This document shows, piece by piece, positions 8,739-51,611 of a DNA stretch of 64,000 nucleotides (position 1 is the first letter of the stretch; each line of letters opens with the position of its first letter). The position numbers and the translations under genes were made by a program. The notes under the pieces were generated by a model that ran no database searches, was not told where the DNA came from, and saw only the letters and a program-made list of their open reading frames with translations. Origin of the DNA: Desulfovibrio sp. UIB00 (GTDB lineage: Bacteria > Desulfobacterota > Desulfovibrionia > Desulfovibrionales > Desulfovibrionaceae); assembly GCF_022508225.1 (NCBI RefSeq), contig NZ_JAETXJ010000003.1, positions 1-64,000 of the forward strand, given 5' to 3'.

Positions 8739-9488
8739 ATGAAACCTACGGCAAGATTTCTTTACTGGTGCGCCACCCTGTTGATCTTCTGCCTGGGCCA
8801 GAGGGCTTTAGCCGCATCATCCCCGCAGGGGGATACCGTTGCTGGTGGAGCCTATGGCTTTGAATCTGCCAAGGCATATCTTGAAATGCAGGAGCGTGAC
8901 CTGGCAGACGCTCAAGGCAAATTTGAAAAGGATCTTTTTCAAAACCTCGATGAAGCAAACGTCATTAATATCAAATATAGGGCGTTACCTCCAAACTATG
9001 TGCTGTACAGACTGAAACTGGCGGACAATATCGAGAAAAACGCCAGCAAGTCAGACAAACAGGACGCATATTGCAAGGAATTTTTGTATATTGACAATGC
9101 AGAAAGAGAAAATGCGGATAAATTTTTGGCCTATAACGAATCAATGACGGAAAAATTCATTCCGCGTGATACATATCAGGTCATGGATGAAGATATATTA
9201 CGCAACGTACTTGTGCGGTATCTTGAAACGTACAGCATGGTGTATGGTTTTAAAAATCCTGATTCCATCAGGATTCGGATTGAAAAGGCCATTCCCTTTA
9301 AAAATGCCGAAGGCGACTTTGGCATTTTGTATTCCATCGCCCTGACGGAAAAGGACGATGCTGACGATTCTGCGTCGGAAAAAATGTTTCAGGTTTCATA
9401 CTGCAACGGAGAAATTGTCAGCTTTGAGCCGTCAGCAAATGACGCGGCGGATGCCGCAGTGCTCAAGATTTGCAAGTCACGGCAGTAG
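8739..9488 (+). CDS. Secreted protein of unknown function
   Basis: A 249-residue protein with an N-terminal signal peptide ending near RALAASS (cleavage around residue 26). The ATG has a strong AGGAGG site. The mature part is hydrophilic, rich in Lys, Asp and Glu, with no motif I recognise and no membrane segment. It sits between the biotin genes and the exopolysaccharide operon on the same strand. The 137-nt gap to the synthase carries a candidate promoter, so it may be independent. No function is proposed. Confidence 0.75.
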   Translation: MKPTARFLYWCATLLIFCLGQRALAASSPQGDTVAGGAYGFESAKAYLEMQERDLADAQGKFEKDLFQNLDEANVINIKYRALPPNYVLYRLKLADNIEKNASKSDKQDAYCKEFLYIDNAERENADKFLAYNESMTEKFIPRDTYQVMDEDILRNVLVRYLETYSMVYGFKNPDSIRIRIEKAIPFKNAEGDFGILYSIALTEKDDADDSASEKMFQVSYCNGEIVSFEPSANDAADAAVLKICKSRQ

Positions 9489-9625: not shown

Positions 9626-11464
9626 ATGCTGCTGTCCACCAAACTTTTTTCCAAGCTCACTCCCCAATTGCCCTTGGACGGTGAAATTTACCCCAAGGCC
9701 AAGAGTGATCGCCGTCTCGCCCCCAATATCCCCGGACGGGGCGGGTCGAGGCGTGGTGCCCATCAGCGGTATGAAGCAGAGCTTCAGGTTTCGGTGTACG
9801 ATGCTTCGGAAGAATCCGCCCCAATACGCTGCCTGAGCGAAGACCTTTCGTCATCTGGCATGCTGCTGCATTGGGCTGATGATGCGCCGCTCCCTGCCGA
9901 GGGGCAAAAGCTTGTGCTGCGCTTTACCATGCCGCCGGGCACCTTGCCGGAAGGGTATGAATCACGCGTGCGTATCCCCGCAGATGTTGTGCGTATTGTG
10001 GAAGGCGAGGATGGTGAAAAAAAGGTTGCCGTCAATTTTGTGCGCAATCTGGATAACTATCTGCGCCTGAGAAAGTGGCTGCGCCTGGTTGCAACTTCTG
10101 TAATTCTGCTTGCAATTTCTGTATATGCCGTTGCCTACATGCGGCAGGAAAGCCTGTTTTACTTCATGTTTGACGTGCCCGTATTTACCTATGGGATTGT
10201 TGCGTCCGTTTTTCTGGTGAGCAGATTTGTATTCTCATTTTTTTACCGCAATATTCCTGTTGATCCTGACTTTACGCCCGGGGTCACTATTGTCATTCCC
10301 TGCTTTAACGAAGAAGAATGGATTGAAAAAACCATCCAGTGCGCCATCAATCAGGATTACCCTCAGGAGAAACTCGAAGTTATCCTTGTGGACGACGGCA
10401 GCACGGATAAATCCATGGAGCGTGTGCGGCGCATCGAAAAGCAGATTCGTAAGGAAATAACCGGCGACCGCTTTGTGGTCATTGAACAGCCCTACAACAT
10501 GGGCAAGCGCCACGCCCTTGCGGCGGGGGCCCAGCATGCCAAGTTTGAGCTGCTGGTCTTTGTGGATTCGGACAGTTTTCTGGAGCCGGACGCCGTGCGG
10601 GAAGTGGTGCAGCCCTTCCGCGACCCCAAGATGGGGGCTGTCTCCGGCAGAACAGAAGTGCAGAACAAATGGACAAACGCTCTCACCAAGATGCAGGCCG
10701 TGCGCTACTATGTGGCCTTTCGGTTCATCAAGGCGGCGGAATCCGTTTTTGACGGCGTGACCTGCCTTTCCGGCCCCCTTGCCTGTTACCGCAAGGATCT
10801 TGTGCTGCACTACCTTGATGAATGGCTCAACCAGAAATTTTTTGGCTATCCGGCCACGTTTGGCGACGACAGAAGCCTGACAAACTATATCCTTGCCCAC
10901 CACCGCACAGGCTATCAGGATGCGGCGGTGTGTTCCACCATTGTGCCTTCGAGCATGCGTACCTTCATCCGGCAGCAAATGCGCTGGAAGCGCTCGTGGC
11001 TGCGTGAAACCCTGCGCGCCAGCTCCTTTATGTGGAGAAAAGAGCCCTTCATGGCGCTTTCTTTCTACATTGGCTTTTTGCTGCCGGTGCTGGCCCCGCT
11101 GGTTGTTGTGCGCACCATGGTGGTTATTCCAATTGAGCTTGGCCTGTTTCCCTACAAATACCTTGCGGGCATTCTTGTCACCAGTATGCTCATGAGCGCC
11201 TCCTATCTGTTGTTCAAACGCAGCAATCTGTGGCCTTACGGCATTGTTTTTTGCGTTTTCTATCTGGGGGTGCTGTTGTGGCAGCTTCCTGTGGCAGTGC
11301 TCACGTTCTGGAAGTCGGAATGGGGCACGCGCAATACGTCTGCCGACGTGGCCGCACAGGAAAAGCTGCGCTACGAGCAGAAGATGTTCGTCATGCCCTC
11401 TGAAAGCGCCGTTGCCGCAGGAGCAGGGCAGCCCGCCGATCATGGCAAGCACGGTGAGGGCTAG
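9626..11464 (+). CDS. PilZ-domain family 2 glycosyltransferase, PgaC-like polysaccharide synthase
   Basis: An inner-membrane processive synthase of 612 residues. An N-terminal PilZ-like domain (about 40-140) has DLSSSG (residues 73-78), the DxSxxG half of the cyclic-di-GMP motif. The Arg half is RRGAHQR (42-48), with the first Arg displaced by one from RxxxR. Two membrane helices follow (about 153-172 and 185-205). The GT2 domain has DDGS (256-259), DSD (314-316), GDD and QQMRW (about 450), the set expected for PgaC/HasA-type enzymes. C-terminal helices form the translocation channel. It is the first gene of a five-gene exopolysaccharide operon. The fused PilZ suggests direct cyclic-di-GMP control of synthesis. 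Confidence 0.88.
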   Translation: MLLSTKLFSKLTPQLPLDGEIYPKAKSDRRLAPNIPGRGGSRRGAHQRYEAELQVSVYDASEESAPIRCLSEDLSSSGMLLHWADDAPLPAEGQKLVLRFTMPPGTLPEGYESRVRIPADVVRIVEGEDGEKKVAVNFVRNLDNYLRLRKWLRLVATSVILLAISVYAVAYMRQESLFYFMFDVPVFTYGIVASVFLVSRFVFSFFYRNIPVDPDFTPGVTIVIPCFNEEEWIEKTIQCAINQDYPQEKLEVILVDDGSTDKSMERVRRIEKQIRKEITGDRFVVIEQPYNMGKRHALAAGAQHAKFELLVFVDSDSFLEPDAVREVVQPFRDPKMGAVSGRTEVQNKWTNALTKMQAVRYYVAFRFIKAAESVFDGVTCLSGPLACYRKDLVLHYLDEWLNQKFFGYPATFGDDRSLTNYILAHHRTGYQDAAVCSTIVPSSMRTFIRQQMRWKRSWLRETLRASSFMWRKEPFMALSFYIGFLLPVLAPLVVVRTMVVIPIELGLFPYKYLAGILVTSMLMSASYLLFKRSNLWPYGIVFCVFYLGVLLWQLPVAVLTFWKSEWGTRNTSADVAAQEKLRYEQKMFVMPSESAVAAGAGQPADHGKHGEG

Positions 11465-11467
11465 GGC

Positions 11468-13462
11468 ATGCGCGCGCTTTCCAAAGATACCTGGAAGATT
11501 CTGCGGTCATGCCTGCAATGGGTATTTCTGATTGGCCTGTGCGTATTTATTGTTCAGCTCTTTATTGAGAGGGGCAGGCCGCCGCAGTTTGACCGTGAAT
11601 CGTGGACGCAACGCGATGGTTTTACGGCCATTTCTTACGGTTCGCTCACACGCGATGAAAAGCCGGGGCTGAACTCGCGCCAGCAGTTTGCGGAGCACGT
11701 GGCAGCCATTGAAAAGGCTGGCTATCAGTGGATAACTTCTGACGATGTCATCAGTTTTTATCGCGATGGAGAACCGCTGCCAGAGAAAGCCCTGTATCTT
11801 ATGATGGAAGGGGGCCGCAAGGACTCGGTTATCTTTGGGCAGGAGATCATGGGTAAAACAGGGGTGCATGCCTCACTGTTTACAACCACCACCTCACTCA
11901 AAAGCTGGAACAACTTTTTTGTCACCAAGTCCAATGTGGCGGCGCTGGCAAAGAGTCCTTTCTGGGATGTGGGCAGCCAGGGGCGGGGGCTGTTGCCCAT
12001 CAACGAAAACATGCCCAAGGTGACGCCCGGCTACTTTTTGACAGATTTTTTGCGCGATTCCACTGGGTTGCCAGCAGAAACAGAAGAGCAGATGCGCGAC
12101 CGGTTGGCAGCGTATTATAAAGAATCGTTTGAGCCGCTGGCAAAGCTCATGCCCGAGCCGCCCAAGGCTTTTGTGATGATGCCCGCCAACTCCTTTAACG
12201 GCTCAATGCCGCATGCGGTCAAAGAGGCCAACCGCGATCTGGTGCAGCAGTATTTTCAGATGGCTTTTTCCAGAGAAGGGGCGGCGTTCAATTCCGCAGT
12301 GGATGACCGTTTTGCGCTTACACGCCTACAGATCAAGCCGGATTGGACGGAGCAGCACCTTATGGAAGTGCTCTCGCTCAGAACCGCCAAACGCACACGG
12401 TTTTCATTGGCAGAGGGCGACACCGCCGATAGCTGGGTGTCATTTCGCACCAGGGTGGAAGCCTCGGGGCAGGATATTGTGCTGACCCCGCAGGAGGGCA
12501 GGGCTGACCCGGTCATCCTGCGGGGCAGCAACCTGTGGGATAATGTTTCGCTGTCCATGACCATTGCGCAGAAGGAAAACGTCGATCGCTACGTCTACCT
12601 GCGCTATGCAACGCCCAGCGCCTTTTTGCGCGTGACCCTGCACGGGGCGCGTCTGCTGGTGCAGGAGCGCGTTCCCGGTCAGGGGCTGTATACTATTGCG
12701 GATGAAACCATTTCCATCCAGCCGCCCTGGCGCTTTGATATCCTGCTCAAGGGCAACAGACTTAAGGTGTTGCTTGATGGAAAGGCGCTTGGCCCAGGAT
12801 TTTTGCCAGTTTCACCCACATTGCGGCTTGGGGCGGTCGCTCTGGGTACCGACGATGTGGAGGGGTTCGAGGGACGCTTTGGTTCGCTGAATATCGTGCG
12901 TATTCCTTCGCTCTGGCGCATTGAATCCACGGGCAACGTCAGTTCTGGCAGTGTGGCTCCAGCCATGGCGCAAGAGGTCACTGCATGCGTGGTGCCGCTG
13001 GCAGCCAGGACAAGTGGCAGCTCTGATGCCGAAAGGGTTTCGCGTCAGGTGCTGCGCGCTAGGGCGGAGGGCAGCATGACCATTGCCGCTCTTGCCCCCG
13101 GCAATCTTGTTCTGGACGACAGCATGCTGCTGATTGCGCCCTTCAGCATAGAACAGAGCCGCAGGCTGTGGGACGGTATAATGGTGCAGCCCCTTGCCCA
13201 AAGCTCATGGAAGGATGTGGCGGCGACCCTCAAGGCCATTGCCGCCGCAGGCTATCGCCCCGTGGTGCGCCTTACGCGCGAGGCGGCGGCAGCGCTTGCG
13301 GCCTCGGACATTACCCTGCCCGCAGAGCATTACCTGCTTGATTTTACGCGGGCGGAAATCCCCGGCTCTCTTTGGACGCCGCTTGCCCATAGGCATAACC
13401 GAAACAATTTCCTTTATGCTACCGCTGAAAAGGGCGTTCTGTACGCTGCGGGGGGCAACTGA
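11468..13462 (+). CDS. Membrane-anchored PgaB-like pseudo-deacetylase with jelly-roll domain
   Basis: 664 residues with one N-terminal membrane anchor (about 14-33) and a large periplasmic part. Residues about 50-260 follow the PgaB/NodB layout: an AISYGSLTRDE start, SRQQFAEHVAAIEKAGYQWITSDD, then LYLMMEGGRKD where active enzymes have a TFDDG-type metal/catalytic motif. Both Asp residues are lost, and no HxxxH follows. A LamG-like jelly-roll (about 345-485) comes next, then a C-terminal alpha/beta region I cannot name. It probably binds or guides the polymer rather than deacetylating it. It starts 4 nt after the synthase and overlaps the next gene by 1 nt (TGATG). Confidence 0.7.
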   Translation: MRALSKDTWKILRSCLQWVFLIGLCVFIVQLFIERGRPPQFDRESWTQRDGFTAISYGSLTRDEKPGLNSRQQFAEHVAAIEKAGYQWITSDDVISFYRDGEPLPEKALYLMMEGGRKDSVIFGQEIMGKTGVHASLFTTTTSLKSWNNFFVTKSNVAALAKSPFWDVGSQGRGLLPINENMPKVTPGYFLTDFLRDSTGLPAETEEQMRDRLAAYYKESFEPLAKLMPEPPKAFVMMPANSFNGSMPHAVKEANRDLVQQYFQMAFSREGAAFNSAVDDRFALTRLQIKPDWTEQHLMEVLSLRTAKRTRFSLAEGDTADSWVSFRTRVEASGQDIVLTPQEGRADPVILRGSNLWDNVSLSMTIAQKENVDRYVYLRYATPSAFLRVTLHGARLLVQERVPGQGLYTIADETISIQPPWRFDILLKGNRLKVLLDGKALGPGFLPVSPTLRLGAVALGTDDVEGFEGRFGSLNIVRIPSLWRIESTGNVSSGSVAPAMAQEVTACVVPLAARTSGSSDAERVSRQVLRARAEGSMTIAALAPGNLVLDDSMLLIAPFSIEQSRRLWDGIMVQPLAQSSWKDVAATLKAIAAAGYRPVVRLTREAAAALAASDITLPAEHYLLDFTRAEIPGSLWTPLAHRHNRNNFLYATAEKGVLYAAGGN

Positions 13463-16400
13463 TGCGCGCCAGTCTCCTTTATTCCAGTCTGCTGTTGACC
13501 CTGTGCTGCGGCTTTGCCGCAGGCGCTGTCTGTGCGCAGGAATTTCCGGCTGGGGATAACCGGGCGCGCCTCGATCAGCCTAGAGGGCTGGAACCTGTCA
13601 AAAACCCCAATTCCGCAAAGGGGCAGGAGCAGACAAGAGGCGCGGAACCGGAAAAGCTTTCGGCAGCCTACTATTACAATCGCGCCAACTATGCCATCAG
13701 CCGCGAAATGTACGCGGAGGCTCTGGGCGAAATCGACAAGGGCATGGATCTGGACCCTGGTTTTCTGCCCTTCATCACGCAAAAGGCCCTTGTGCTTTCG
13801 CGCCTGTCGCGGCACGAGGATGCCGCGCGTTTCTATTCGCTGGCGCTTGAAGCCAGGCCGGACGATGCGCGGCTTGCGGCCCTTGCGGCAGAAAATATCC
13901 AGAGCAGCCGGGCCAGCGATCCAGCGGCCCTTTCCGCTGATCTGGCAAGGTTTTTCAGCGGTCTTTCCGTCCAGGTGACGCCGGAGCTTCTCAAACTGCT
14001 GGCCGAGCGGCAGGATCAGAACAACGCTGTCTTTTTGCCCGCCCTGCGCGCTGCAGGGGCCGTTGGCAAGCTCACGGACGAGGAGCAGGCGGTGCTCAAG
14101 GCCTGCCTTGCCAACAACGGCACCGTTGCAGCAGCTCTGTTGCGCCGGCAGAACGACTGGCCGCAAGGCTCGGAACCGTTACGGGCCGTGTTTGAGGCCA
14201 TGACCGCCCGCGCCCTGCAACTGGCTGGCAAGCAGGACGAAGCCGAGGCTTTTTATCGGCAGGCAGCCACGCGGGGCTTTAGTCAGGAAACCTTGAACGC
14301 CATCAAGGCGCAGGCCTACCTGAACCTTAACGAGCAGAAAAAGGCCGCCACGGTTTACGAGCAGGGCTGGCGAATGGCTTCCAGCCCGCAGGTCTGGGCC
14401 GTGCGCGCTGCAGATGCCTACGCCGCCTCTGGCGGCATCAAGGATGCCTGCGATATACTTGAAAAGGCAGCAAAGATTGCCCCGCACGACCTGTATTTGC
14501 AGGGGCAGCTCTATTACCGCCTCGCCCAGGCCGGAAAAACCGCCGAACTCAAGGCGCTTGAGCAGAGGCTTGAGGCAAGCGGCAATGACATTGCCGTAAA
14601 TTTTGGCAAATTCCTGTTCGCCCGGCAGAGCAAAAACCGGGATGCCATGCAAAAAGCCCGGCAGGCCGTTGTGGAGCATGTGGACGATGTCAGCGCTGTT
14701 CACGCGCAGGACGACATCCGGCTGATTGTCGCCAGCCTTGGGTTCAGCGGTGCGCAGGCCCCGCAGGAGCAGCAGGCAGAACTCATGCGCAACAACGGCT
14801 GGGAGCTGTGGGACAGCGGAAAAATAGACGATGCCTATGTTTCGTGGCGCGATTCCATTGCTCTTGACCCCCAGCATGGGCAGAAGGCTGGCCCCTCCAT
14901 GTGTGCGGTCTTGTTGCAGCAGGGCAGAACTGCGGACGCCATGGAACTTTTCCGCATGCAGTACCCTGAAATGCCCGTGTTCTCCCTTGCCTTGTATCTG
15001 ATAAAGGACAAGCAGTGGTCAGCGGCTTACCCGCTGTTGCGGTCTATGGCTGCCCCCTCGGGCGCCAATGCCCCATGGTACGCGCTGGCCCTTGCCGCAG
15101 GCGCGCTTGAAGGCGGCGACATCCGCGCAGTGGAAACCAGCGCCAGGGCCTTGCTCGCCCTTGATCCGCCGCAGGAAAGCCACACGGTCAGTATTCCCGC
15201 CGCTGATGTGGGGGCAGGGCAGTTGCAGTTGAGCAGGTCGCTCTATCTCTCCATGCTGTCGGAATATCTGGGCAAGCTGCTGGATCAGCAGAATGTTGCC
15301 TTGATCCCCGAACTTCTGGCCAGCAGGCAGCTTCAAGGCATACCCGCGCCTCAGGCCGCTAAAATGTTGAGCGAAGCTGGTTTCAGCCTTGCAGTTGGCG
15401 ACAGCGCGCAGGCTGCGGTGCCTTTGTGGCAGCGTGCGCTTGCGCTCAGCCCCGATCTGCCCGAGGCGCATCTGGGTATGGCCCTTGCCGCCGCCATGCA
15501 GGGAAATATGACAGCTGCGGAGATTCATCTGAACGCGGCCCCTGTCAATACTTCGGCCCGGCATGAATTCATTCTTGGCCGCATCAGGATACTTGAAGGG
15601 CAGACGGATGTGGCTCTGCGTCATTTTGACAACTTTTTGCGCGCGGAACCCGGCAATCTTGCCGCACGGTACGCAGTTTTCAATATTTTTATGTCGCTGG
15701 CAGACTACACCCGCGCCCGCGCGCTTTACGGCGAATTTAAAAATGCCGCAGGGCCTACCGCCCGGCTGTATGAAGGGCAGTGCGCCCTTGCCTTGGGCGA
15801 TGCCGGTAGGGCAGAGGCGATTTTCCGTTCTCTCATGGTCAAGGGTGCAACCACAAGGCCTGTGGCGCCGCTGCTTGTGGCAGCTTTGCGCGCCCAGAAC
15901 CGTTGGGCGGAGGCGGCTTCCATTTTGCAGCAAAGCGGCCTGCCAGATCCGGAAAAACTTACGGCTCTGCGCCGTCAGGCCGAAGACGCACTGGCTGAAG
16001 CCCGCTACCCTGCGGCGCGCGGCTACGCGCAGACCTATCTGGCCGATGATCCGGATTCCGCCTATGTGCAATCGCTGTACAACAGCTCCCTGCGCGATGA
16101 GTACAGGATGCAGGCTGACCGCCTTGAAAAGCTCAAGCGCGAACAGATACGAATTGCCCGAGGCACGCTTGATCCTGAACGCCTTGCCCCGCAGGAAAGG
16201 GAAAAACTGGCGGAGCTGCGCTCCGGCGGTCAGGCTGCGCTTGAGCCCGACAGATCGCTCCTTGATGATGCGCAGACGCATGCCGAAGGCCTCCTTGCCC
16301 GCAACACCATACAGCGCGACGCGCTGGAAAGCGTGCTGGATATTTCCCTGCAACGCCATGACTACAATGAAGCGGCTAAAATCTCCCGCCATATGGCGCA

Positions 16401-18384
16401 GGAATATCCTTACGACATGCACTATCAGTTGCAGTCTGCCGTGCATTCCGGCGCAGTGTCGCGTTTCGACCGTGCTCTGCCTGTGGTGCAATCCCTTTCG
16501 GCCCGTGGGCCAAACGGGGCGGGCATGGCCCTGTGCTTTGCCAACATAACCTCGCAGTCGGACGGCAAAAGTTATACCCCGCAGGATGTTGCCGCTTATC
16601 TGGATCAGCTTGGCGCAAACTATCGGCCGGTTTCCCTGCCGGAGTTTCTGGCTCCTGCACCCACTGACGCGGCCACTGTTGCGCCGGGTAAAATACCTCT
16701 GCTGCTCGTCATCGGGCAGACGCGGCCTGAAGAACTGCAAGCCATAGACGCCGCTCTGGCTCAACGTGGCGGCAAGGCCGTACTGTTGGTGAGCAGGCAG
16801 TCGTTTATTCCCGGCACGCCGGACGACCTGCCCAATACTGCGCTCTTGCGCAGGCTTGTGGCCACAGGCCGCTGGGAACTGGCGCTCACGGATACCTCAG
16901 GCCGCACCATTGTGGATGTAACAGGCCGCAGGGGCGGCTTCTGGGCACGGCGCGCAATGGTGGACGGACGGCCTGAAACTGTCGAAGAAATGAAACACCG
17001 CTGGGCTTCAGCCATGGCCGAAGCGCGCCAGCTTGCGCAGTCTCAGGGCTTTGCGGTAACGGCGTGGATGTACCCCGGCGGCGATTACGGGCAGATCAGC
17101 CTCAACGGCGATGCGGACATCCGGCGGGCCTATACCGAGGCTGCCCGCGAAGTCTTTTCTGTGGCCTTTGTGCCCACTGCCAACGGTTATCACACCAACA
17201 GCCTTGATCCGCTGTTTGTGCCAGTGCGCAACGTGTACGCGCAGCTGGACGCCAAGGCCATAGCCTCCATGCCGCAGAGCCATCCCACGCGCCTCGCTGT
17301 GCAGACAGAGGGTTTGCTGGCAAGCTGGCACGGGCAGTTGCCGCGTGCGGAAATGCTCTTTGCCCGGGCGGCCTCACTTGGCCTTTCGCCTGCGGATAAC
17401 GCCTATTACCGCGCCAGCAACGCGCTGTTTGACGAAGATGCGCCCTATGCCAACGAGCTTGCGCGCGAAGCAAAGCGGCTTGATCCGGATAACCCGCGAA
17501 CGGACGAACTCCTTGATCGCGCGCAGCAGCTTTTGCGGCCTAGAGCCACATTCAGCCCTCACGGATGGACAGACAATGCCGGACGTAGTTTTGCGGAATA
17601 CGAGCTTAAGGCTTCCACCTTTTTGCAGGAGAATCTTTCTGCTCAGGCCTCGGTTTCCGACCTGTGGTGGAAGAGCGACCACAATTCGCTGCACGGCCAC
17701 GCCATCGGCATCGGGCTGCGCTACTTCCCTTTCAAGCAGCATTGGCTTGATCTGATGGTGCGCGATGTGCAGCCGGACAGCGGTTCTTCCTTTATGGAAG
17801 CCCGCGCTGCCTGGCGCGGCGTGTATTCGGTCGATCCCTTGCGCATCAACGGGCCGTACACCCTCAGCTACAGCCGACAGTCAATCGAGACGGCGGAAAG
17901 CGTCAAAAAGGGTGTGTACGCCGACAGGCTGGGCCTGAATACCGAGGCCCGCATACTGGACTGGGGCGTGCTTCAGGCCGAAATCTTCGGTACCCAGCGC
18001 ACGGATGGCAACCGCACTGTGGGCGGCACCGTCAGCCCCCGCTATATTGTGTGGGACAAGCCGCAGTTGCAGTTGGGCTATCTGTTCAGTGCAGCCGACA
18101 GCGACAGGAATCCTGCCGACTATTACGCCCCGCAGGAATACGTCAACCATATGGCTGTGGCCTCGTTTGACGTGGCGCTTTTTGACCAGATGCACGTGCG
18201 CGGCTTTGCCGGATACGGTACGGCCATATCCAAGAACAAAAACTGGGAGCAGGTTCTGCGTTACAGCCTTGATCTGAACTGGGTTCCTGCCGATAACTGG
18301 AGCCTTGCCCTTGGCTACAGGCGTATGGAACTGCCCGATTACAACATGGATGAATATTCGCTGAACCTGCAATACGTTTTTTAA
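13462..18384 (+). CDS. PgaA-like exporter: TPR array, deacetylase-like domain and outer-membrane barrel in one chain
   Basis: 1640 residues. A signal peptide ends at AVCAQE (about residue 26). TPR-like repeats run from about 60 to 1000, as in the periplasmic part of PgaA. Residues about 1019-1260 resemble a PgaB/NodB deacetylase: MALCFANI start, LLLVIGQTRPEE, and AWMYPGGDYGQ (about 1200), but the DD motif is replaced. A short TPR-like stretch follows (about 1285-1345). The last 270 residues are an amphipathic beta-barrel ending in Phe, as outer-membrane proteins do. It is the likely outer-membrane exit port for the polymer made by the upstream synthase. The insertion of a degenerate deacetylase fold between TPR and barrel is unusual. 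Confidence 0.78.
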   Translation: MRASLLYSSLLLTLCCGFAAGAVCAQEFPAGDNRARLDQPRGLEPVKNPNSAKGQEQTRGAEPEKLSAAYYYNRANYAISREMYAEALGEIDKGMDLDPGFLPFITQKALVLSRLSRHEDAARFYSLALEARPDDARLAALAAENIQSSRASDPAALSADLARFFSGLSVQVTPELLKLLAERQDQNNAVFLPALRAAGAVGKLTDEEQAVLKACLANNGTVAAALLRRQNDWPQGSEPLRAVFEAMTARALQLAGKQDEAEAFYRQAATRGFSQETLNAIKAQAYLNLNEQKKAATVYEQGWRMASSPQVWAVRAADAYAASGGIKDACDILEKAAKIAPHDLYLQGQLYYRLAQAGKTAELKALEQRLEASGNDIAVNFGKFLFARQSKNRDAMQKARQAVVEHVDDVSAVHAQDDIRLIVASLGFSGAQAPQEQQAELMRNNGWELWDSGKIDDAYVSWRDSIALDPQHGQKAGPSMCAVLLQQGRTADAMELFRMQYPEMPVFSLALYLIKDKQWSAAYPLLRSMAAPSGANAPWYALALAAGALEGGDIRAVETSARALLALDPPQESHTVSIPAADVGAGQLQLSRSLYLSMLSEYLGKLLDQQNVALIPELLASRQLQGIPAPQAAKMLSEAGFSLAVGDSAQAAVPLWQRALALSPDLPEAHLGMALAAAMQGNMTAAEIHLNAAPVNTSARHEFILGRIRILEGQTDVALRHFDNFLRAEPGNLAARYAVFNIFMSLADYTRARALYGEFKNAAGPTARLYEGQCALALGDAGRAEAIFRSLMVKGATTRPVAPLLVAALRAQNRWAEAASILQQSGLPDPEKLTALRRQAEDALAEARYPAARGYAQTYLADDPDSAYVQSLYNSSLRDEYRMQADRLEKLKREQIRIARGTLDPERLAPQEREKLAELRSGGQAALEPDRSLLDDAQTHAEGLLARNTIQRDALESVLDISLQRHDYNEAAKISRHMAQEYPYDMHYQLQSAVHSGAVSRFDRALPVVQSLSARGPNGAGMALCFANITSQSDGKSYTPQDVAAYLDQLGANYRPVSLPEFLAPAPTDAATVAPGKIPLLLVIGQTRPEELQAIDAALAQRGGKAVLLVSRQSFIPGTPDDLPNTALLRRLVATGRWELALTDTSGRTIVDVTGRRGGFWARRAMVDGRPETVEEMKHRWASAMAEARQLAQSQGFAVTAWMYPGGDYGQISLNGDADIRRAYTEAAREVFSVAFVPTANGYHTNSLDPLFVPVRNVYAQLDAKAIASMPQSHPTRLAVQTEGLLASWHGQLPRAEMLFARAASLGLSPADNAYYRASNALFDEDAPYANELAREAKRLDPDNPRTDELLDRAQQLLRPRATFSPHGWTDNAGRSFAEYELKASTFLQENLSAQASVSDLWWKSDHNSLHGHAIGIGLRYFPFKQHWLDLMVRDVQPDSGSSFMEARAAWRGVYSVDPLRINGPYTLSYSRQSIETAESVKKGVYADRLGLNTEARILDWGVLQAEIFGTQRTDGNRTVGGTVSPRYIVWDKPQLQLGYLFSAADSDRNPADYYAPQEYVNHMAVASFDVALFDQMHVRGFAGYGTAISKNKNWEQVLRYSLDLNWVPADNWSLALGYRRMELPDYNMDEYSLNLQYVF

Positions 18385-18462
18385 AAAGCATTCAGTGTCC
18401 TGCGCCGGGCCGTCTGGCCCTTGCGTTAAATCCGTCCGGGCCAAAGCGCCGGGGAGGTTGTT

Positions 18463-19494
18463 ATGAAATGTCTGCGTTCTGCCGCTTCTGCGGGACTGCT
18501 TGTGCTGTGTTGCGCATTTCCGGCGGTGGCAGCCGATGCATGGGTGGCGGATTGGGACATGCCCAACGGGCTTGCTGAACTGCGTCAGGGCAACTTTAAA
18601 AACGCGCTCATGTTTGCCGCGTATTTTGACAGGCAGGGCAGACCCTTCCTCACCGATGACATGAAAAAGGCCTTGCGCGGCGGGCTTGCGGCTTCGCTGG
18701 GCCAAAGCCCCAATGTACAGGGCGTGTTCCTTTCAGTCGTTAATGACGTGGTTGAAGCCCCCGGTAAATCTGTGCAAAAGGACCCCTCCCTTGTGAGCCG
18801 GCTCATGGCTACGGACGCCAGCCGCGCCGCGCACCGCAGCGATCTGCTGGCCCTGCTGGCGGCCTATCCCTTTACAGGGCTGGAACTTGATTACGAAAGG
18901 GTCAATATGGATGACTGGCCCCGGCTGCTGCAATTTGCGCAGGAGCTTTCCGCCACGCTGGCTGCTCAGGGTAAAAAACTGCGGCTGGTCATGGAGCCAA
19001 AGCAAAAGTACCTGCAAGGCAATCTGCCCGCAGGCCCGCAGTATGTGGTGATGGCCTACAACCTGCACGGCAATCACAACGGGCCGGGGGCCAAGGCTGA
19101 CGATGCCTTTTTGCGCCAGTTGGCCCAGTGGTGCGCTCACTGGCCTGTAAAGCCTGGGTTGGCGCTTTCTGCGGGCGGTTTTGCCTGGACGGGCAGGGGC
19201 GTTGTGGATCTTACCGAGCGCAAGGCCGCCGCATGGGCGCAGGGCGCGGGCGTACAGCCCAAGCGCGACCCAGCCAGCCATGCCCTGTACTTTAAGGCGG
19301 CGGACAACACCCCAGGCAGCCCCCTGATTGCCAAGGGGGGAACCACTGGCGGCAGTTGCGAAATCTGGTATGCGGATGGTGAAACCCTTGCCCATTGGGC
19401 CGATGTGGGGCGCAGCCTTGGCTTTGGCGATGTGAGCCTGTGGCGTCTTGGCGGCAACACACCGGAATCTCTGGCTAAAATTTCAGGAAAGTAA
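18463..19494 (+). CDS. Secreted GH18-like glycoside hydrolase
   Basis: 343 residues with a signal peptide ending near VAADA (about residue 24). A TIM-barrel glycosidase signature GLELDYERV puts the probable catalytic acid at Glu145 with Asp143, as in GH18 enzymes of the YaaH/chitinase type. VMAYNLHG further on fits the substrate-binding strand. A GGGAGG site precedes the ATG. In Pga systems the hydrolase is the C-terminal GH153 half of PgaB. Here a free-standing GH18-like protein occupies the same operon and could trim or cleave the exported amino-sugar polymer. Substrate not shown. Confidence 0.78.
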   Translation: MKCLRSAASAGLLVLCCAFPAVAADAWVADWDMPNGLAELRQGNFKNALMFAAYFDRQGRPFLTDDMKKALRGGLAASLGQSPNVQGVFLSVVNDVVEAPGKSVQKDPSLVSRLMATDASRAAHRSDLLALLAAYPFTGLELDYERVNMDDWPRLLQFAQELSATLAAQGKKLRLVMEPKQKYLQGNLPAGPQYVVMAYNLHGNHNGPGAKADDAFLRQLAQWCAHWPVKPGLALSAGGFAWTGRGVVDLTERKAAAWAQGAGVQPKRDPASHALYFKAADNTPGSPLIAKGGTTGGSCEIWYADGETLAHWADVGRSLGFGDVSLWRLGGNTPESLAKISGK

Positions 19495-19497
19495 GTG

Positions 19498-21603
19498 ATG
19501 ACGCCGCAAAGCAGTGATATGCAGGTGCGTTTGCACACCTTTGGAACCATTGTGTGCCTGGCGGTATTGCTGCTGTGCGCCAGTTTTTGCACGGTTTTTG
19601 CGGCCGTGGTTCAACCCTCGCGGAGCCTGTATGTGGGCGCGGGATTCAGCGGTGGTGACGGACTCAGCGCAGACAGGCCGTTAGGCAGCATCAACGCCGC
19701 GCTGCAAAAAGCCCGTAAAGGCGATGTCATCGTTGTTGCGCCGGGAGAATACCGGGAATCCATACGGGTTTCCACAGCGGGGCTTACCATTTTGGGCAGC
19801 GCACCCGGCAAAGATGCGCTTCAGGTTGTTATCGCGGCTCCGGCTGGCAAATCAGGGTATGTGCTTGCCGACAGCGCCGATACCGTATGGCGCGGCATTG
19901 CCTTTCGCATCGGGGACAGCGCCGCAATAAATTTGCGTGGTTTTACCGGGCGGTTTGAATTTTGCCATTTTACCTCTGAAAGCCCGGTGCCGGGCATTGA
20001 AGTATATGGCGGCGATTTTGTGTTTCAGGGCTGTACCTTTTCGGGCGGGGCCGAGCCGACAGCCATGCTGGCGCTCAATGGGCAGGCAGGGCGCAAGAGC
20101 CGTGTGACTCTGGCTTACTGCCTGTTCCGCGATAACCCCGGCGGCGCTGTGCTGCTGCGGGGTGAGCAGGATGTGCATTTTGTGAACTGCCTCTTTGCCG
20201 CCTGCCGTTTTGTCGCCATGCGTCAGGCCGGGGTAGGAGCGCAAATTTCTGCCGTCAACAGCATATTTTTTCTCAGCCCGGAGCCAAGCCTGTTTTTACA
20301 GTCGCCCTCCGCTCCCAAAGCGCGCCTTGAAAGCTGCCTGTACGCGCCAGCGCCCGGCGATTTCATGAAATGGCAGGCCAGGCCTCTCGACCAGCAACCG
20401 GAAGTTACCGCTGTGAACTGCATCACGGCCTCTCCCCGTTTTGTGGGCGGGCGCAATGCCTTGATAAACCTCTGCGTGGACGACACTGTTAATGCCCCGG
20501 TATGGCGTTCTCTCACGCCAGCTGCGGCAAAGCTGGGGCTGAAAATCACCCTTGCGCTGAATACGGACGCGCTCTCGCCGCAATACTGGCAAATGATTAT
20601 TCCTGAGGTGAACGCGGGATTTGAAGTGGCCTCCCACGGGGCGGTACATGCCAGCATTACCTCTGCTGAGGTATTGCGCGTTGGCTGGTTTGATCCGGCG
20701 GGCACATCAGCCTCCCTGTCCATAGACCAGGCAGAGCAACTGCGGGTGGTCGTGGACGGCAAGGAGCTGTGCGCTATTGACCTTGCAGTCCAGCCCTATC
20801 TTTCCATGGGGGCGCTGGTGCGTCAGTTGCAGGAGAAAGGCCTCAGGGCGGAGCTTGTGAGCCTGAGCCACGAGAAAATTCCCGCCTATCTGCTGGCCCC
20901 GGTACAGGAGCAGGATATCTTTTTTGCGCGGCACAATGCGGAACTGGTCATGGATACCAGGGCATACATGCACTACATGCTGTCTGAATCGCGCCGTAAG
21001 ATTGAGCAAGGCCTACGGGAGTATCATGCTGCGCAAAAAAACTGCACGGCTTTTGTGTGCCCCTACAGCGAGAGCAATACAAATATCCGGCAGGCCATGC
21101 AGTCTACGGGTTTTCAGGTTGCGCGCAGCCATATGGCGCAGCGCTTCCTATCTGCCGTTGAACGCGTCGATCTCTCTGCCCTGCAAAGCATTTCTCTGAA
21201 AGATATCGTGCCCGGCGCGCCAACGCCCAATCTCAAGGAAATGCTGCGCATGTATCTGGATTATCTGAAGTACCACGGTTCCATCATGGGGCTATACAGC
21301 CACGGAGCCAACGAATGGACAGCCAATCAGTGGATAGACCTCTTTGAGGTCTTGCGCGAAAACCGTTCTGTAAAAACAGCCGGGCTTGCGGAAATAGCCG
21401 CCATAGTCAAGGAACAGTGCGAATCAACAGGGCCGTGGACATACCGCTGCCCCTCGCAATCTGGCCCTGTGGGCGGCGAGACATCGTTCAGGCCTGGGCA
21501 GGATTCACCCCTGATTGGCGCTGGCGTGCCGACAGAATTTAACACGGATTATGCGGGCAGGCCTTTGCAGGCAGGGCAGAGGCCCAATATCGGCTTGTAC
21601 TGA
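19498..21603 (+). CDS. Beta-helix protein with inserted polysaccharide-deacetylase domain
   Basis: 701 residues with an N-terminal hydrophobic signal/anchor (about 12-36). Residues about 40-310 form a right-handed parallel beta-helix (VGAGFSGGDGLSADRPLGSI, then turn repeats). A NodB-like domain follows with INLCVDDTVN (DD at about 327-328) and ASHGAVHAS (HxxxH near 379-383), so this copy keeps the metal-binding residues lost in the two upstream relatives. The chain ends with a beta-helix cap, DSPLIGAG...RPNIGLY. A GTG at 19495 is in frame, but the ATG at 19498 fits the AGGA site better. Likely role: periplasmic or surface de-N-acetylation of the operon's polymer. Confidence 0.75.
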   Translation: MTPQSSDMQVRLHTFGTIVCLAVLLLCASFCTVFAAVVQPSRSLYVGAGFSGGDGLSADRPLGSINAALQKARKGDVIVVAPGEYRESIRVSTAGLTILGSAPGKDALQVVIAAPAGKSGYVLADSADTVWRGIAFRIGDSAAINLRGFTGRFEFCHFTSESPVPGIEVYGGDFVFQGCTFSGGAEPTAMLALNGQAGRKSRVTLAYCLFRDNPGGAVLLRGEQDVHFVNCLFAACRFVAMRQAGVGAQISAVNSIFFLSPEPSLFLQSPSAPKARLESCLYAPAPGDFMKWQARPLDQQPEVTAVNCITASPRFVGGRNALINLCVDDTVNAPVWRSLTPAAAKLGLKITLALNTDALSPQYWQMIIPEVNAGFEVASHGAVHASITSAEVLRVGWFDPAGTSASLSIDQAEQLRVVVDGKELCAIDLAVQPYLSMGALVRQLQEKGLRAELVSLSHEKIPAYLLAPVQEQDIFFARHNAELVMDTRAYMHYMLSESRRKIEQGLREYHAAQKNCTAFVCPYSESNTNIRQAMQSTGFQVARSHMAQRFLSAVERVDLSALQSISLKDIVPGAPTPNLKEMLRMYLDYLKYHGSIMGLYSHGANEWTANQWIDLFEVLRENRSVKTAGLAEIAAIVKEQCESTGPWTYRCPSQSGPVGGETSFRPGQDSPLIGAGVPTEFNTDYAGRPLQAGQRPNIGLY

Positions 21604-46190: not shown

Positions 46191-48278
46191 ATGTATGTTC
46201 TGCAAAGAAATGGCGATGTCTTTGAAATGCGGCAGGAACCCCTGATGGCGGAAGGCGTCAACCGCTCGGGGTTTTTGTTCAACAGCTATAGCGGCGCACC
46301 AAGAGCGAATCGGCGGGAAACCTGGGAATCCTTTATAAGAACCGGTAAGATTGTTGACGACAGCCTGCCCAGGCCCATAGCGGCCTCGTGGATGCGTTGC
46401 CGCGATCTTGGGGTGGACCCGCTGCTGCCCAAGTGCGCGGAATTTACGCCCATGAGCCAGATCAACGCGCAGGCCGAAGTATACGCGGAACTGGCGGCTG
46501 GCGTGGAACGTCAGGTGTATGAGCAGATCAAGGAAAAAGGCCTGCTCATGACTGTATCCGAGGCCAATGGCCGGTTGCTGCGCACCTGCGGCAACAAAGA
46601 TGTATTGCTTCAGGCAGACCAGCTTTACTTTGGGCCCGGTGCTGTATGGTCAGAAAAAAGCGTGGGCACCAACGCCATAAGCCTGGCCCTTTCTGACGGC
46701 ATGCCCGCGCAGGTTATGGGCGAGGAACATTTTTGCAGCAGTCATCAGGCCTGGGGGTGTTCTGCCGCGCCCATTTTCACGCCCTTTGGGCAACTGTGGG
46801 GTTGTTTTGATATTTCTGGGCCAACCAGCGCCGACCACCGTCAGGCATTGTGGCTGGCTGTTGGTGCGGCCCGCGAGATTGAACGTCTGTTGCTCAATGC
46901 CTCTCTCAGCAGCATGGAGAACAAATCCCGCACACTGCTCAGCACGCTCTTCAGTTCCATGCCCATTGGCGTGTTGATGGTGGATGAGGGTGGGATCATC
47001 ACCTATGCCAATGCCCAGGCAGAGCGTCTGTTGGGCTTTAGCGGCGATGTGCGCGGCGGACGCGCCGAGGCGTTTTTTGACTACACTCTGTATGCGCTCC
47101 AGCAGACGGAAAAGAGCAGTCAGCCCGAGGGAGTTCCCCTGCGCTGCCTGACCAACCCGGCCATTACGGCCTGCGCCATGCCCTTCATGACAGGCCAGTC
47201 AGAAGCGCGCTACACCCTTGTGACCCTTCAGGCCGGAGTGGAAGCCCGTCCCGCGCCTATTGCCCCCGTGCCGCATATACCGCGCCGAGAAGGCACACGT
47301 CCGTTTGGCGAGATTGTTTACCGCAGCGAAAAAATGTCCCGCACGGTGGAGCAGGCGCGACATATGGCCAAAAGCCCTGCGGCGGTTTTGTTGCTGGGCG
47401 AAACGGGCACGGGCAAGGAACTGTTTGCCCAGGCCATCCACAAGGCCAGCCGATGTTCCGAAGGGCCTTTTGTGGCGGTAAACTGCGGGGCTTTACCGCG
47501 TGAGCTTATCCAGAGCGAACTTTTTGGCTACGAACGGGGGGCCTTTACCGGAGCAGTGGAAAAGGGCCGCCCCGGCAAGTTTGAACTGGCCGACAAGGGA
47601 ACTCTGTTTCTGGATGAAATTTCTGAAATGCCCCTGGAAATGCAGGTCAACCTGCTGCGGCCCCTGGAAGACCGCTGTGTAACAAGGGTTGGCGGCAAGC
47701 AAACCAGAATGGTCGATTTCAGGCTGGTCACGGCCACCAACCGCAATCTTGACGAGCTGATGGCTTCGGGTGCGTTTCGTGAAGATCTCTTTTATCGTAT
47801 CCACGTGCTCGCGCTGGAGATTCCCCCTTTGCGCGAGCGCAGGGAAGATATAGCCGTTATTGCGGAATACCATTGCAAACGCCTGTGCCGCACCTATGGG
47901 CACCCCTTTGGCGGATTTTCTGCCGAGGCTTTGCGCGTGATGGAAGATTACGATTGGCCCGGAAATGTGCGTCAGCTTGTGCACAGCGTGGAATTTGCCG
48001 TCAACATGGCGCAGGGCGGCTGTATTTTGCCCGCACACCTGCCTGCGCATTTGCAGTCCTGTGCTGGTGGAACCAATGCAGCCAGCGGGCAACCAGATGG
48101 GCAAGCCGTGGCGGCCCTGCCCGGAATGACAGATTTTAACCTGGACAATCAGGAGGCCAAGGTTATCCGCTGCGCTTTGAAGCATTATAATGGCAACATG
48201 CTTCAGGCCGCCAAGGCGCTGGGCATTGGCCGCAACACCCTGTACGCCAAGTTGCGCAAGATTGTTCCCGATGGTTAA
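46191..48278 (+). CDS. acoR: AcoR-type sigma-54-dependent activator
   Basis: 695 residues. An N-terminal GAF sensor (about 80-230; SVGTNAISLALSDGMPAQVMGEEHF is typical of acetoin regulators), a PAS domain (about 250-330), the AAA+ activator domain (about 385-610) with Walker A GETGTGKE at 403 and GAFTGA at about 451, which contacts sigma-54, and a Fis-type helix-turn-helix at the C-terminus (KALGIGRNTLYAKLRKI). It is divergent from the aco operon, which carries a sigma-54 promoter and dyad sites. Expected effector: acetoin or a related metabolite. Confidence 0.92.
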   Translation: MYVLQRNGDVFEMRQEPLMAEGVNRSGFLFNSYSGAPRANRRETWESFIRTGKIVDDSLPRPIAASWMRCRDLGVDPLLPKCAEFTPMSQINAQAEVYAELAAGVERQVYEQIKEKGLLMTVSEANGRLLRTCGNKDVLLQADQLYFGPGAVWSEKSVGTNAISLALSDGMPAQVMGEEHFCSSHQAWGCSAAPIFTPFGQLWGCFDISGPTSADHRQALWLAVGAAREIERLLLNASLSSMENKSRTLLSTLFSSMPIGVLMVDEGGIITYANAQAERLLGFSGDVRGGRAEAFFDYTLYALQQTEKSSQPEGVPLRCLTNPAITACAMPFMTGQSEARYTLVTLQAGVEARPAPIAPVPHIPRREGTRPFGEIVYRSEKMSRTVEQARHMAKSPAAVLLLGETGTGKELFAQAIHKASRCSEGPFVAVNCGALPRELIQSELFGYERGAFTGAVEKGRPGKFELADKGTLFLDEISEMPLEMQVNLLRPLEDRCVTRVGGKQTRMVDFRLVTATNRNLDELMASGAFREDLFYRIHVLALEIPPLRERREDIAVIAEYHCKRLCRTYGHPFGGFSAEALRVMEDYDWPGNVRQLVHSVEFAVNMAQGGCILPAHLPAHLQSCAGGTNAASGQPDGQAVAALPGMTDFNLDNQEAKVIRCALKHYNGNMLQAAKALGIGRNTLYAKLRKIVPDG

Positions 48279-48310
48279 CCCTTCATAGTATTGCCAGATT
48301 GCCACAATCC

Positions 48311-48370
48311 GGCCTGCTCTTAACCTGAGTCCCATTTATGGGGCATGCGGTTTGGAGCAGGCCTTTTTTT
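48311..48370 (+). terminator. Intrinsic terminator of acoR
   Basis: GGCCTGCTC (48311-48319) pairs with GAGCAGGCC (48355-48363), followed by a T7 tract. A small nested CCCAT/ATGGG stem sits in the loop. Beyond it, up to 48585, the DNA turns AT-rich with only a doubtful 61-codon frame. Confidence 0.8.
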
Positions 48371-48585
48371 GTATGGAGTCCCCGTTAGCTTTCCCCAGTA
48401 GAATACCGGGAAAACTAGCCGCTTTAATCATTGCCACTGGAGCATTATTAACTGTCTACGTGATGGGGTGCAGACTACTAGTCGGGAATGTTTTTATTCA
48501 AGTTGCAGAAATTGGACTGCATCTAATTTCTGTTTGATTATCGATTAGTGTAAATTGGTCAATATTAATTGCAGGTATTGTTTCC

Positions 48586-49476
48586 TTATAGTGGAGTGCT
48601 TGTATAATTTCTTTTGACGATGCTGATAAGATCAGTAATTGCCTTTCTGCTGTCACCTTTACGGTAAATGCAGGATGCGTGTATGTAGAGTTCCTCGCCT
48701 TGTAAGGGGACATAAATAAAGCCGGGGGTGGTTGAGGGCAAGATGCCCCGAGGGAGCAGCCCAATGCAGGCTCCGGTAGAAACCGTAGCCAAAGCAGAAA
48801 TTAAGCCAGAAGCCTCGTAGGCTATTTCGGGAGTGAAGCCTGCCTGAGTGGTAATGTTGTAGTCTGTTCTTGTGAAATTTTTGAAAAAAGGATCAGACAG
48901 GGCAATAAATTTTTCATTCTGCAGGTCGTTCAAACATACGGATTTTCGTCCAGAGAGGCGGTGGGTTGAGGCCATCACCGCAAATAGTTTGAGAGTTTTA
49001 AATTTTTCAATGCAAAGACCATCAATCTGGGTGTCATCTTCTGTTCCAATTATACCAATATCAATTGTATTGTTAAGTACGGACTGTACTTGGTTGTGAA
49101 AATTGTTTTCATGACATTCGAGCATGCTTACATCGTACTGCCTGCTTCGCAATAATTCAAGTAAATCAAATAAAAGGGTGCTGGCAATAAACCCTAGTTT
49201 TATTTTTTGAAGAGGCTCAACGCTTCGACGGATATCTATTAGTCCCTTGTCCATAATTGAAACTACATGACTAGCATGCTTGAATAGTCTTTCTCCTGCA
49301 AGTGTTACCTCTACGCCATTAGCAGTGCGAATGAACAGTGGTGTGCCAATCTCATTTTCTGCCTCTTGAATGATTCTGCTTACTGAAGGCTGAGAAGTGT
49401 GAAGTAGTTTTGCAGATCTTGAAATATTTTTTTCTGTAGCAGTGACAAGAAAGTATCGAAGGTGTTTCAATTCCAT
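48586..49476 (-). CDS. LysR-family transcriptional regulator
   Basis: 296 residues. The N-terminal winged helix (LKHLRYFLVTATEKNISRSAKLLHTSQPSVSRIIQEAENEIGTPLFIR) is classic LysR; a periplasmic-binding-protein-like effector domain follows from about residue 90. Codon use is clearly AT-richer than in the flanking aco and bdh genes, suggesting later acquisition. No metabolic gene is adjacent; the nearest divergent gene is the chemoreceptor at 49851. Target and ligand unknown. Confidence 0.88.
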   Translation of the reverse strand: MELKHLRYFLVTATEKNISRSAKLLHTSQPSVSRIIQEAENEIGTPLFIRTANGVEVTLAGERLFKHASHVVSIMDKGLIDIRRSVEPLQKIKLGFIASTLLFDLLELLRSRQYDVSMLECHENNFHNQVQSVLNNTIDIGIIGTEDDTQIDGLCIEKFKTLKLFAVMASTHRLSGRKSVCLNDLQNEKFIALSDPFFKNFTRTDYNITTQAGFTPEIAYEASGLISALATVSTGACIGLLPRGILPSTTPGFIYVPLQGEELYIHASCIYRKGDSRKAITDLISIVKRNYTSTPL

Positions 49477-49850
49477 TGTGATATACCTGTTTATATTGTG
49501 TTAATGATTTTATATGCAGTATTTTTATCACTAATATTGCTTATATGAATTTTATTTTAATATTCTACTTAAATTATTGCATGAAACGATATTTTGTGTT
49601 GTCCAGTGCTGCTTGTTTTTGTCTAACTATCTAAAAATATATACATATACAATATATGTATATTGCATCAAAAAATAATATTTTTCAAGTCTTGATTGTA
49701 AATGTAAGGTAAAAATAAGCTCCAATGTTGCTCTTTTTTACTAGGTGTGAAGGTTGCTACAAAATTTCTGTATGGCTTTCATCATGCAGGTAGTTATTGT
49801 TAGCTGCCTATTGTATGTCCTAACATCCTTTTCTGGCTTAAGGAACTATC
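49477..49850. other. AT-rich divergent intergenic region
   Basis: 374 nt between LysR and the chemoreceptor, strongly AT-rich with runs such as ATATATACATATAC near 49640. It probably holds both promoters; no gene or clear operator is visible. Confidence 0.5.
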
Positions 49851-51611
49851 ATGATTAGGCATCTTACCCTTCAACAGAAGCTTCTTTCAGGATTTCTTGT
49901 TACTTCACTTATTACCCTTGCAGTTGGAATGTTGGCAATTTCAAAAATAGTAATCTTGGAATCTGCCGATTCAAGGCTTTATGAAAAAGCTACTGCCCCA
50001 ATGAAAGACCTTATTTCCATTGTGGAGAATTATTATAAGATGCGTATTATTGTGCGTGAACTTGCCAATAATGAACATCTTAAAGATATTCCGCAACAGA
50101 TAGAGGAGATAAATAGAATTCGTTCGTATCTCCATGAAAGGATAGCTTTTGTTGAGAACTCGCTCATCTCTGCCGAAGGTGTAGCAATTATCAACGAATT
50201 CAAGCAGGCTTCTGCCACCTATGAACAGACTGCGAATAAAATGATCAGCAAGGTTCTGGACAATAAGTATCTAGAGGCTAGAGCATTACTTATCAACGAG
50301 GTCGTTCCTGCTGCTGGCAACTACCAGAAGATCATGGACAATCTTGTGACTACAAAAATCCACTATGCAAAAATACTGGCCGACAGCAACAAGGAGCTGG
50401 CAGCAACAACCAGCATGTATATTTATGGCATACTGGCTGCCTGCCTGTTTTTTTCCATTGGCCTTGGTGTGCTATTGACCCGTAGCATCATGAATCAGCT
50501 CGGCGAAGATCCTGGCTATCTCGCGCAAGTAGCGGGATCCATCGCTAATGGCGACCTTAACGTTACCTTTCGGGCACAAAGGAAAGCTGGCGGGGTTTAC
50601 AAGGTCTTGCAGCAAATGGTGCAAGCAATGAAGGACAAGATCCGCGAGGCAGAAGAAAAAAGTCAGGACGCTTACCATCTGGCGAAGGCTGCGCAAGAAG
50701 CTACAGGGCTGGCAGAAGAAGCTACGCGAAAAGCTGAACGCGCCAAGGCAGAAGGTATGCTTCAGGCTGCGCGGCAACTTGAGGGTGTTGTTCAGGTGGT
50801 ATCCTCCGCATCCGAAGAACTCTCCTCTCGGATTGGGCAGTCCAGCCGGGGGGCAGATGAGCAGTCAGGTCGAGTACGAGAAACAGCTGCAGCTATGGAA
50901 GAGATGAATGCCACTATCCTTGAAGTCGCGCGCAATGCGCAGGAGGCAGCCAATATTTCTCACCAAGCACGCCAAAAAGCTCAAGATTGCTCTCAAATAG
51001 TAAATAATGCGGTGCGCAGTATCGAAACAGTTGAAACGCAATCACTTGCAATTAAAGAGGATATGAACGCTCTAGGTCGGCAGGCTGAGGGAATTGGGCA
51101 AGTTATGGGAATAATAGCCGATATCGCTGATCAGACCAATTTGCTGGCTCTCAATGCTGCCATTGAAGCCGCTCGGGCTGGTGATGCCGGACGCGGTTTT
51201 GCTGTGGTTGCCGATGAAGTACGCAAGCTTGCTGAAAAGACCATGACCGCTACCCAGGAAGTGGGACAAACAATATTGGGTATTCAGGAGGGGACGCGCA
51301 AGAATATCCACAACGTAGAGCAGGCTGGCGTGTCCATTGAAGAAGCCGCAAAGCTATCGGCCAAGTCCGGCGAATCGCTCAAGCAGATTCTGGAATTTGT
51401 TCACATGGTAAATGACCAGGTGCAATCTATTGCAACCGCCAGTGAACAACAATCCGCTGCTAGTGAGGAAATTAACCATTCTGTGGAGCAGGTAGCTACT
51501 ATTTCTGCTGAAACAGCTCAGGCAATGGAGCAGGCATCTACAGCGGTAGCTGACCTTGCGCAGCAGTCCCAGGCACTACAGCGGCTCATAGTTGAAATGA
51601 AGAACGGATAA
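49851..51611 (+). CDS. Methyl-accepting chemotaxis protein
   Basis: 586 residues. TM1 about 10-30, a periplasmic four-helix-bundle-like sensor (about 31-185), TM2 about 186-210, HAMP, then a signalling domain whose hairpin tip reads [20 protein letters not shown]. Methylation-type helices flank it. No C-terminal CheR-binding pentapeptide. Like the LysR gene beside it, its 5' half is AT-richer than the surroundings. Sensed ligand unknown; proximity to acetoin/butanediol genes is suggestive only. Confidence 0.92.

Follow-up and report, generated by a model that had tools for sequence, protein, structure and literature searches.

Does the gene cluster at positions 9626-21603 of the window, a stretch of 64,000 nucleotides from Desulfovibrio sp. 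UIB00, encode a rearranged pga operon, or a different machinery for making and exporting a polysaccharide? Five adjacent open reading frames (ORFs), all of them open throughout, are arranged here head to tail on the + strand (Table 1), in agreement with the first-pass annotation of this DNA. The first junction between them measures 3 bp, the second is a 1-bp overlap, and the third and fourth measure 78 bp and 0 bp; a pgaD gene would not fit into the operon, hence the reported lack of PgaD holds for the operon. The genes were compared with those of two relatives from the same genus, G109 (93-97% identical) and G165 (77-83% identical, 90% for the synthase part). The resulting dN/dS values of 0.06-0.13 across all five genes demonstrate purifying selection, therefore the ORFs are not chance frames. 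Scans of the locus for promoters and terminators yielded signals near chance level.

Table 1. Genes of the operon and predicted features of their products.
Feature	Position	Strand	Predicted product	Basis
Protein 2	9626..11464	+	612 aa, PilZ + GT2 processive synthase, NodC/hyaluronan-synthase class	Pfam, NCBIfam, PDB, motif table
Protein 3	11468..13462	+	664 aa, N-terminal membrane anchor, PgaB-type deacetylase domain without catalytic residues, C-terminal extension	
Protein 4	13462..18384	+	1640 aa, signal peptide, TPRs, PgaB-type domain without catalytic residues, further TPR, outer-membrane barrel	
GH18-like secreted glycosidase	18463..19494	+	343 aa	Pfam below cut-off, GH18 signature residues
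Protein 6	19495..21603	+	702 aa, right-handed beta-helix + deacetylase domain	Pfam

Just upstream of the operon, a gene at 8739-9488 encodes a secreted 249-aa protein of unknown family, which is kept in relatives lacking the operon. It was rejected as a sixth member, as it is still in place in genome G200, from which the operon is gone, and the synthase gene of genome G385 is preceded by an aldehyde dehydrogenase gene instead. Elsewhere in the window, at 48001-50000, the G+C content drops to 41% compared to about 57% just before, possibly indicating foreign DNA.

The system as a whole had been considered Pga-like, a view with which the class of the synthase disagrees. Protein 2 matched GT2 and, with 34.2 bits against a cut-off of 22.5, the PilZ domain in Pfam, which confirms the PilZ domain noticed previously. 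The best NCBIfam model was NodC with 199.6 bits, followed by PgaC with 142.8 bits, both far under their own cut-offs and with no match to a hyaluronan synthase; the synthases of three distant relatives repeated this ranking of NodC above PgaC. The closest solved relatives in the PDB were hyaluronan synthases (E values of 9e-36 and 3e-35), while cellulose synthase reached only 3e-6. Identity to NodC or hyaluronan synthase is about 30%. An alignment with NodC, PgaC, IcaA and hyaluronan-synthase-like sequences identified the motifs GKR, DSD, SGPLACY, GDDRSLTN, QQMRWKRSWLRE and WGTR in protein 2, where PgaC and IcaA possess GKA, DGD/DAD, SGVIA/SGVFT, TEDI, QRxRWAQGG and WxSP. Among the functional motifs named for hyaluronan synthase are GDDR, QxxRW and the WGT gating loop (PMC11750622). 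The class motifs of NodC and hyaluronan synthase are present in the catalytic domain, and the best PDB relatives point to the same class. As judged consistently by NCBIfam, PDB and motifs, protein 2 is of the NodC/hyaluronan-synthase class, not the PgaC class, and a beta-1,4-type product would be expected. A bcs-type synthase found no support, with 48 bits for CelA against a cut-off of 699 in NCBIfam, no BcsB-like gene in the operon and an N-terminal position of PilZ in protein 2. This PilZ domain contains DLSSSG, and its arginine motif is one residue longer than RxxxR, as is that of a Paenibacillus relative; the motif is canonical in G385. The host genome has 31 GGDEF matches.

The product might instead be hyaluronan-like, with amino sugar and uronic acid alternating and the beta-helix of protein 6 serving as a uronic acid lyase or epimerase. 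Hyaluronan synthases being the nearest solved relatives fits this idea, as do the RYxxAF stretch and the WGTR gating loop, in which the clade of the window resembles hyaluronan synthases and differs from NodC with its EYWLAC and WLSR. In hyaluronan synthase, two arginines of this stretch are located near GlcA (PMC11750622). Moreover, a TviB-like UDP-sugar dehydrogenase gene is located directly upstream of the synthase in Paenibacillus, and two full-length nucleotide-sugar dehydrogenases are encoded elsewhere in the genome of the window. A synthase tree of 14 rows had long branches and was indecisive on the placement. The aligned synthases from Enterococcus and Lactococcus, at about 31% identity, are encoded next to a nucleotide-sugar dehydrogenase gene, an arrangement known from hyaluronan synthesis. 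However, the Desulfobacterota operons have no dehydrogenase gene, NodC scores higher in NCBIfam, which returned no hyaluronan synthase match, and catalytic residues of the beta-helix were not identified. We consider this reading rather unlikely.

The three deacetylase-like domains proposed earlier were recovered in proteins 3, 4 and 6 by Pfam, by comparison with relatives and by alignment with PgaB. Protein 3 alone had no Pfam match; four of the six members of its family matched Polysacc_deac_1, and its N-terminus aligned weakly (E = 0.064) with the solved E. coli PgaB. For the C-terminal part, one family member matched Laminin_G_2 at merely E = 0.068. In protein 4, the PgaB-type domain spans about residues 1024-1260 and was detectable only via the relatives G105 and G385. 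What the first-pass annotation had missed is that two of the three domains are devoid of all catalytic and metal residues. Where PgaB has D114, D115, H184 and H189, protein 3 of the window shows E, G, Q and a gap, and its protein 4 shows G, Q and no His. All four are gone as well from proteins 3 and 4 of G165 and G385, the G105 and Paenibacillus versions of protein 3 retain one Asp, and protein 4 of G105 has retained all four. The N-terminal His of motif 5 (PMC10967932) follows the same pattern of loss. This loss is old, as other families lack the same residues. Nevertheless, dN/dS against G109 and G165 is 0.087 for the deacetylase-like domain of protein 3 and 0.132 for that of protein 4; these predicted domains without any metal or catalytic residue are constrained. 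The NodB2 topology is tied to PNAG deacetylases (PMC10967932); as far as the alignments tell, domains of the PNAG type have lost their catalytic site in loci whose synthase is of another type, G105 being the one exception. AlphaFold2 models from the window sequence alone, with pLDDT values of 35 for protein 3 and 36 for residues 981-1640 of protein 4, were discarded.

Besides this domain, protein 4 contains TPRs and an outer-membrane barrel (Pfam; barrel at about residues 1380-1640). Its G105 counterpart matches both PgaB (TIGR03938, 1.7e-21) and PgaA (TIGR03939, 4.6e-9), which agrees with the PgaA/PgaB-type export parts assumed previously, while the direct comparison of the window barrel to PgaA was weak (E = 0.003, probability 10%). 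The separate gene for a putative GH18-like glycosidase was also recovered: its product matched GH18 with 23.2 bits, below the cut-off of 29.6, and D143 and E145, the last D and the E of the signature DxxDxDxE, are invariant in six members, the first D being replaced. A GHL13 glycosidase had no match in the host genome. In protein 6, Pfam recognized Beta_helix (6.3e-6), as anticipated, and Polysacc_deac_1 (3.3e-7). The stretch matched by the latter contains intact CE4 motifs, VDD (Asp-Asp) and SHGAVH (His-His), and among the deacetylase domains of the operon only that of protein 6 has its motifs intact. Its late LYSHG, read by eye, points to a NodB1 topology and not to NodB2, the PgaB-like one. 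A separate 323-aa deacetylase in G385, with FDDG, THTYHH and LYGH, looks similar, again read by eye. The beta-helix gene is not part of the core, as it is confined to the genus of the window among the sampled genomes.

For a diverged pga operon producing poly-beta-1,6-GlcNAc, whose synthase only looks NodC-like, one can cite the PgaB-type domains together with the TPR-barrel exporter and PgaC as the second-best NCBIfam model (142.8 bits). This is nevertheless improbable, as the class-distinguishing motifs GKR, DSD, GDDR, QQxRWxxSWxRE and WGTR are all of the NodC/hyaluronan-synthase type, PgaD is missing from the operon and GHL13 from the genome, and the PgaB-type catalytic residues are lost.

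The synthase (E = 1e-80) is present in 5 of 395 genomes of the phylum, including that of the window, and beyond the genus G105 and G385 are its sole carriers; protein 4 occurs in 5 of the 79 genomes of the genus. The G105 locus consists of the synthase, protein 3, protein 4 and GH18. In G385, synthase, protein 3 and protein 4 are followed by the intact deacetylase, with GH18 on the other strand. A plasmid of Paenibacillus cellulositrophicus carries genes for an intact deacetylase, the TviB-like dehydrogenase, the synthase, protein 3 and GH18 and none for an exporter. The dehydrogenase frame next to that synthase (L007, 8714-9958), a TviB-like UDP-N-acetylglucosamine C-6 dehydrogenase, is absent from the plasmid gene table. 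Hence, the core of synthase, dead deacetylase and GH18 recurs in two other families of Desulfobacterota and in Paenibacillus, the distribution beyond the phylum resting on this one plasmid. There were no plasmid matches to protein 4 or protein 6, and a search of viral contigs returned no match; a match in G187 was rejected as part of a different polysaccharide cluster. The scan of genome contigs gave a single match, a 94% fragment from a MAG labelled Syntrophobacterales; that contig (L008) encodes the beginning of protein 3 with 94% identity and possibly reflects a binning error. Over its catalytic region, the synthase of the window shares 62.5% identity with the Paenibacillus enzyme, against 52.7% with that of G385 and 46.9% with that of G105; this closer relation to Paenibacillus suggests horizontal transfer. 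Each locus has an intact deacetylase at a varying position (protein 6, the 323-aa gene of G385, protein 4 of G105, the upstream gene in Paenibacillus). Repeated recruitment of deacetylases is a claim drawn from these four loci and needs many more. No described operon was found to match the five-gene order, and we could not find a description of the combination of synthase, Pga-type exporter and two dead deacetylase domains.

Several relatives have lost parts of the locus. In G200 the flanks are in place on both sides (bioF to the 8739-9488 gene; Fe-alcohol dehydrogenase onwards) and the operon is gone; what is left between the 8739-9488 gene and the Fe-alcohol dehydrogenase gene is a stretch of protein 6 of 124 aa with 94% identity (L050, 9679-10106). 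Protein 6 was found nowhere in the G109 genome, although proteins 3 and 4 are intact there; an IS-like sequence, resembling transposase OrfA by eye, directly follows the GH18 stop at the contig end (L010, 1-334). The G165 synthase is broken, its two parts being located on different contigs (L011, 11287-11430, and L024, 1516-2094) with about 80 codons missing in between, and the ends flanking the break, GGTAATCCTCCCA and TGGGAGGATTACC, read as inverted copies. That the locus is a functionless, decaying relic, as the G200 remnant, the missing G109 protein 6 beside IS-like sequence and the broken G165 synthase might indicate, is very improbable given the five open frames in the window, dN/dS values of 0.06-0.13 that include the dead domains, and the lack of the same catalytic residues in other families.

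The locus is not a pga operon; it represents a genuine and rare variant, of hybrid type, of synthase-dependent exopolysaccharide secretion. Based on the operon anatomy, that is gene content, synthase class, residue loss, constraint and recurrence, we assign a probability of about 0.6 to a hybrid machine in which the dead domains handle the polymer and catalysis is provided in trans. The PilZ-bearing GT2 enzyme would build a beta-1,4-type chain from UDP-GlcNAc, either as the only substrate or in alternation with a uronic acid, and push it through the inner membrane, possibly gated by c-di-GMP. Anchored in the inner membrane, protein 3 would bind the chain with its dead PgaB-type domain and hand it over to protein 4, whose TPRs and second dead PgaB-type domain would receive it for release through the barrel. 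Some N-acetyl groups would be taken off by protein 6 via the sole intact deacetylase site, and the GH18 protein may trim or clear periplasmic chain. The two former deacetylase domains would thus have been kept for polymer handling, with catalysis supplied in trans. Counting against this hybrid machine, protein 6 can be dispensable, since G109 lost it but keeps intact proteins 3 and 4; G105 has an intact PgaB-type domain beside a synthase of the same class; the arginine motif of PilZ departs from RxxxR by one residue; and the match of the window barrel to PgaA is weak.

With pgaABCD of E. coli (surveyed in PMC7112194) the locus shares a PgaB-type domain, TPRs with an outer-membrane barrel and a separate glycosidase activity. 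It differs in the synthase class, the lack of PgaD, GH18 instead of GHL13 (GH153), a catalytically dead PgaB-type domain as part of the exporter, and an extra beta-helix deacetylase. NodC and hyaluronan synthase (PMC4132801, PMC11750622) have the GT2 motifs GKR, DSD, SGP, GDDR/GEDR, QQxRW and a WGT-like loop in common with protein 2, which differs by its N-terminal PilZ, the export and deacetylation context of its operon and the identity of about 30%. In other Desulfobacterota families, the GH18 profile found six proteins of 1105-1143 aa (L044-L049) in which GH18, NodB and GT2 are fused, so that the same three activities are united on one chain; in contrast, their GT2 is of the GKA/DADT type, their NodB is intact and the chain has neither PilZ nor exporter. 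Listeria pssA-E (PMC4125290) is likewise a c-di-GMP-linked GT2 operon whose product is not readable from sequence, but possesses a separate GGDEF receptor, PssE, and the BcsB-like PssD, both absent here.

If the hybrid machine is real, Desulfobacterota and Paenibacillus would possess a pathway secreting a beta-1,4 amino-sugar polymer, to which annotation would assign the label PNAG or none at all. With two constrained, catalytically empty domains per system, non-enzymatic handling of a polymer by PgaB-like domains would become directly testable.
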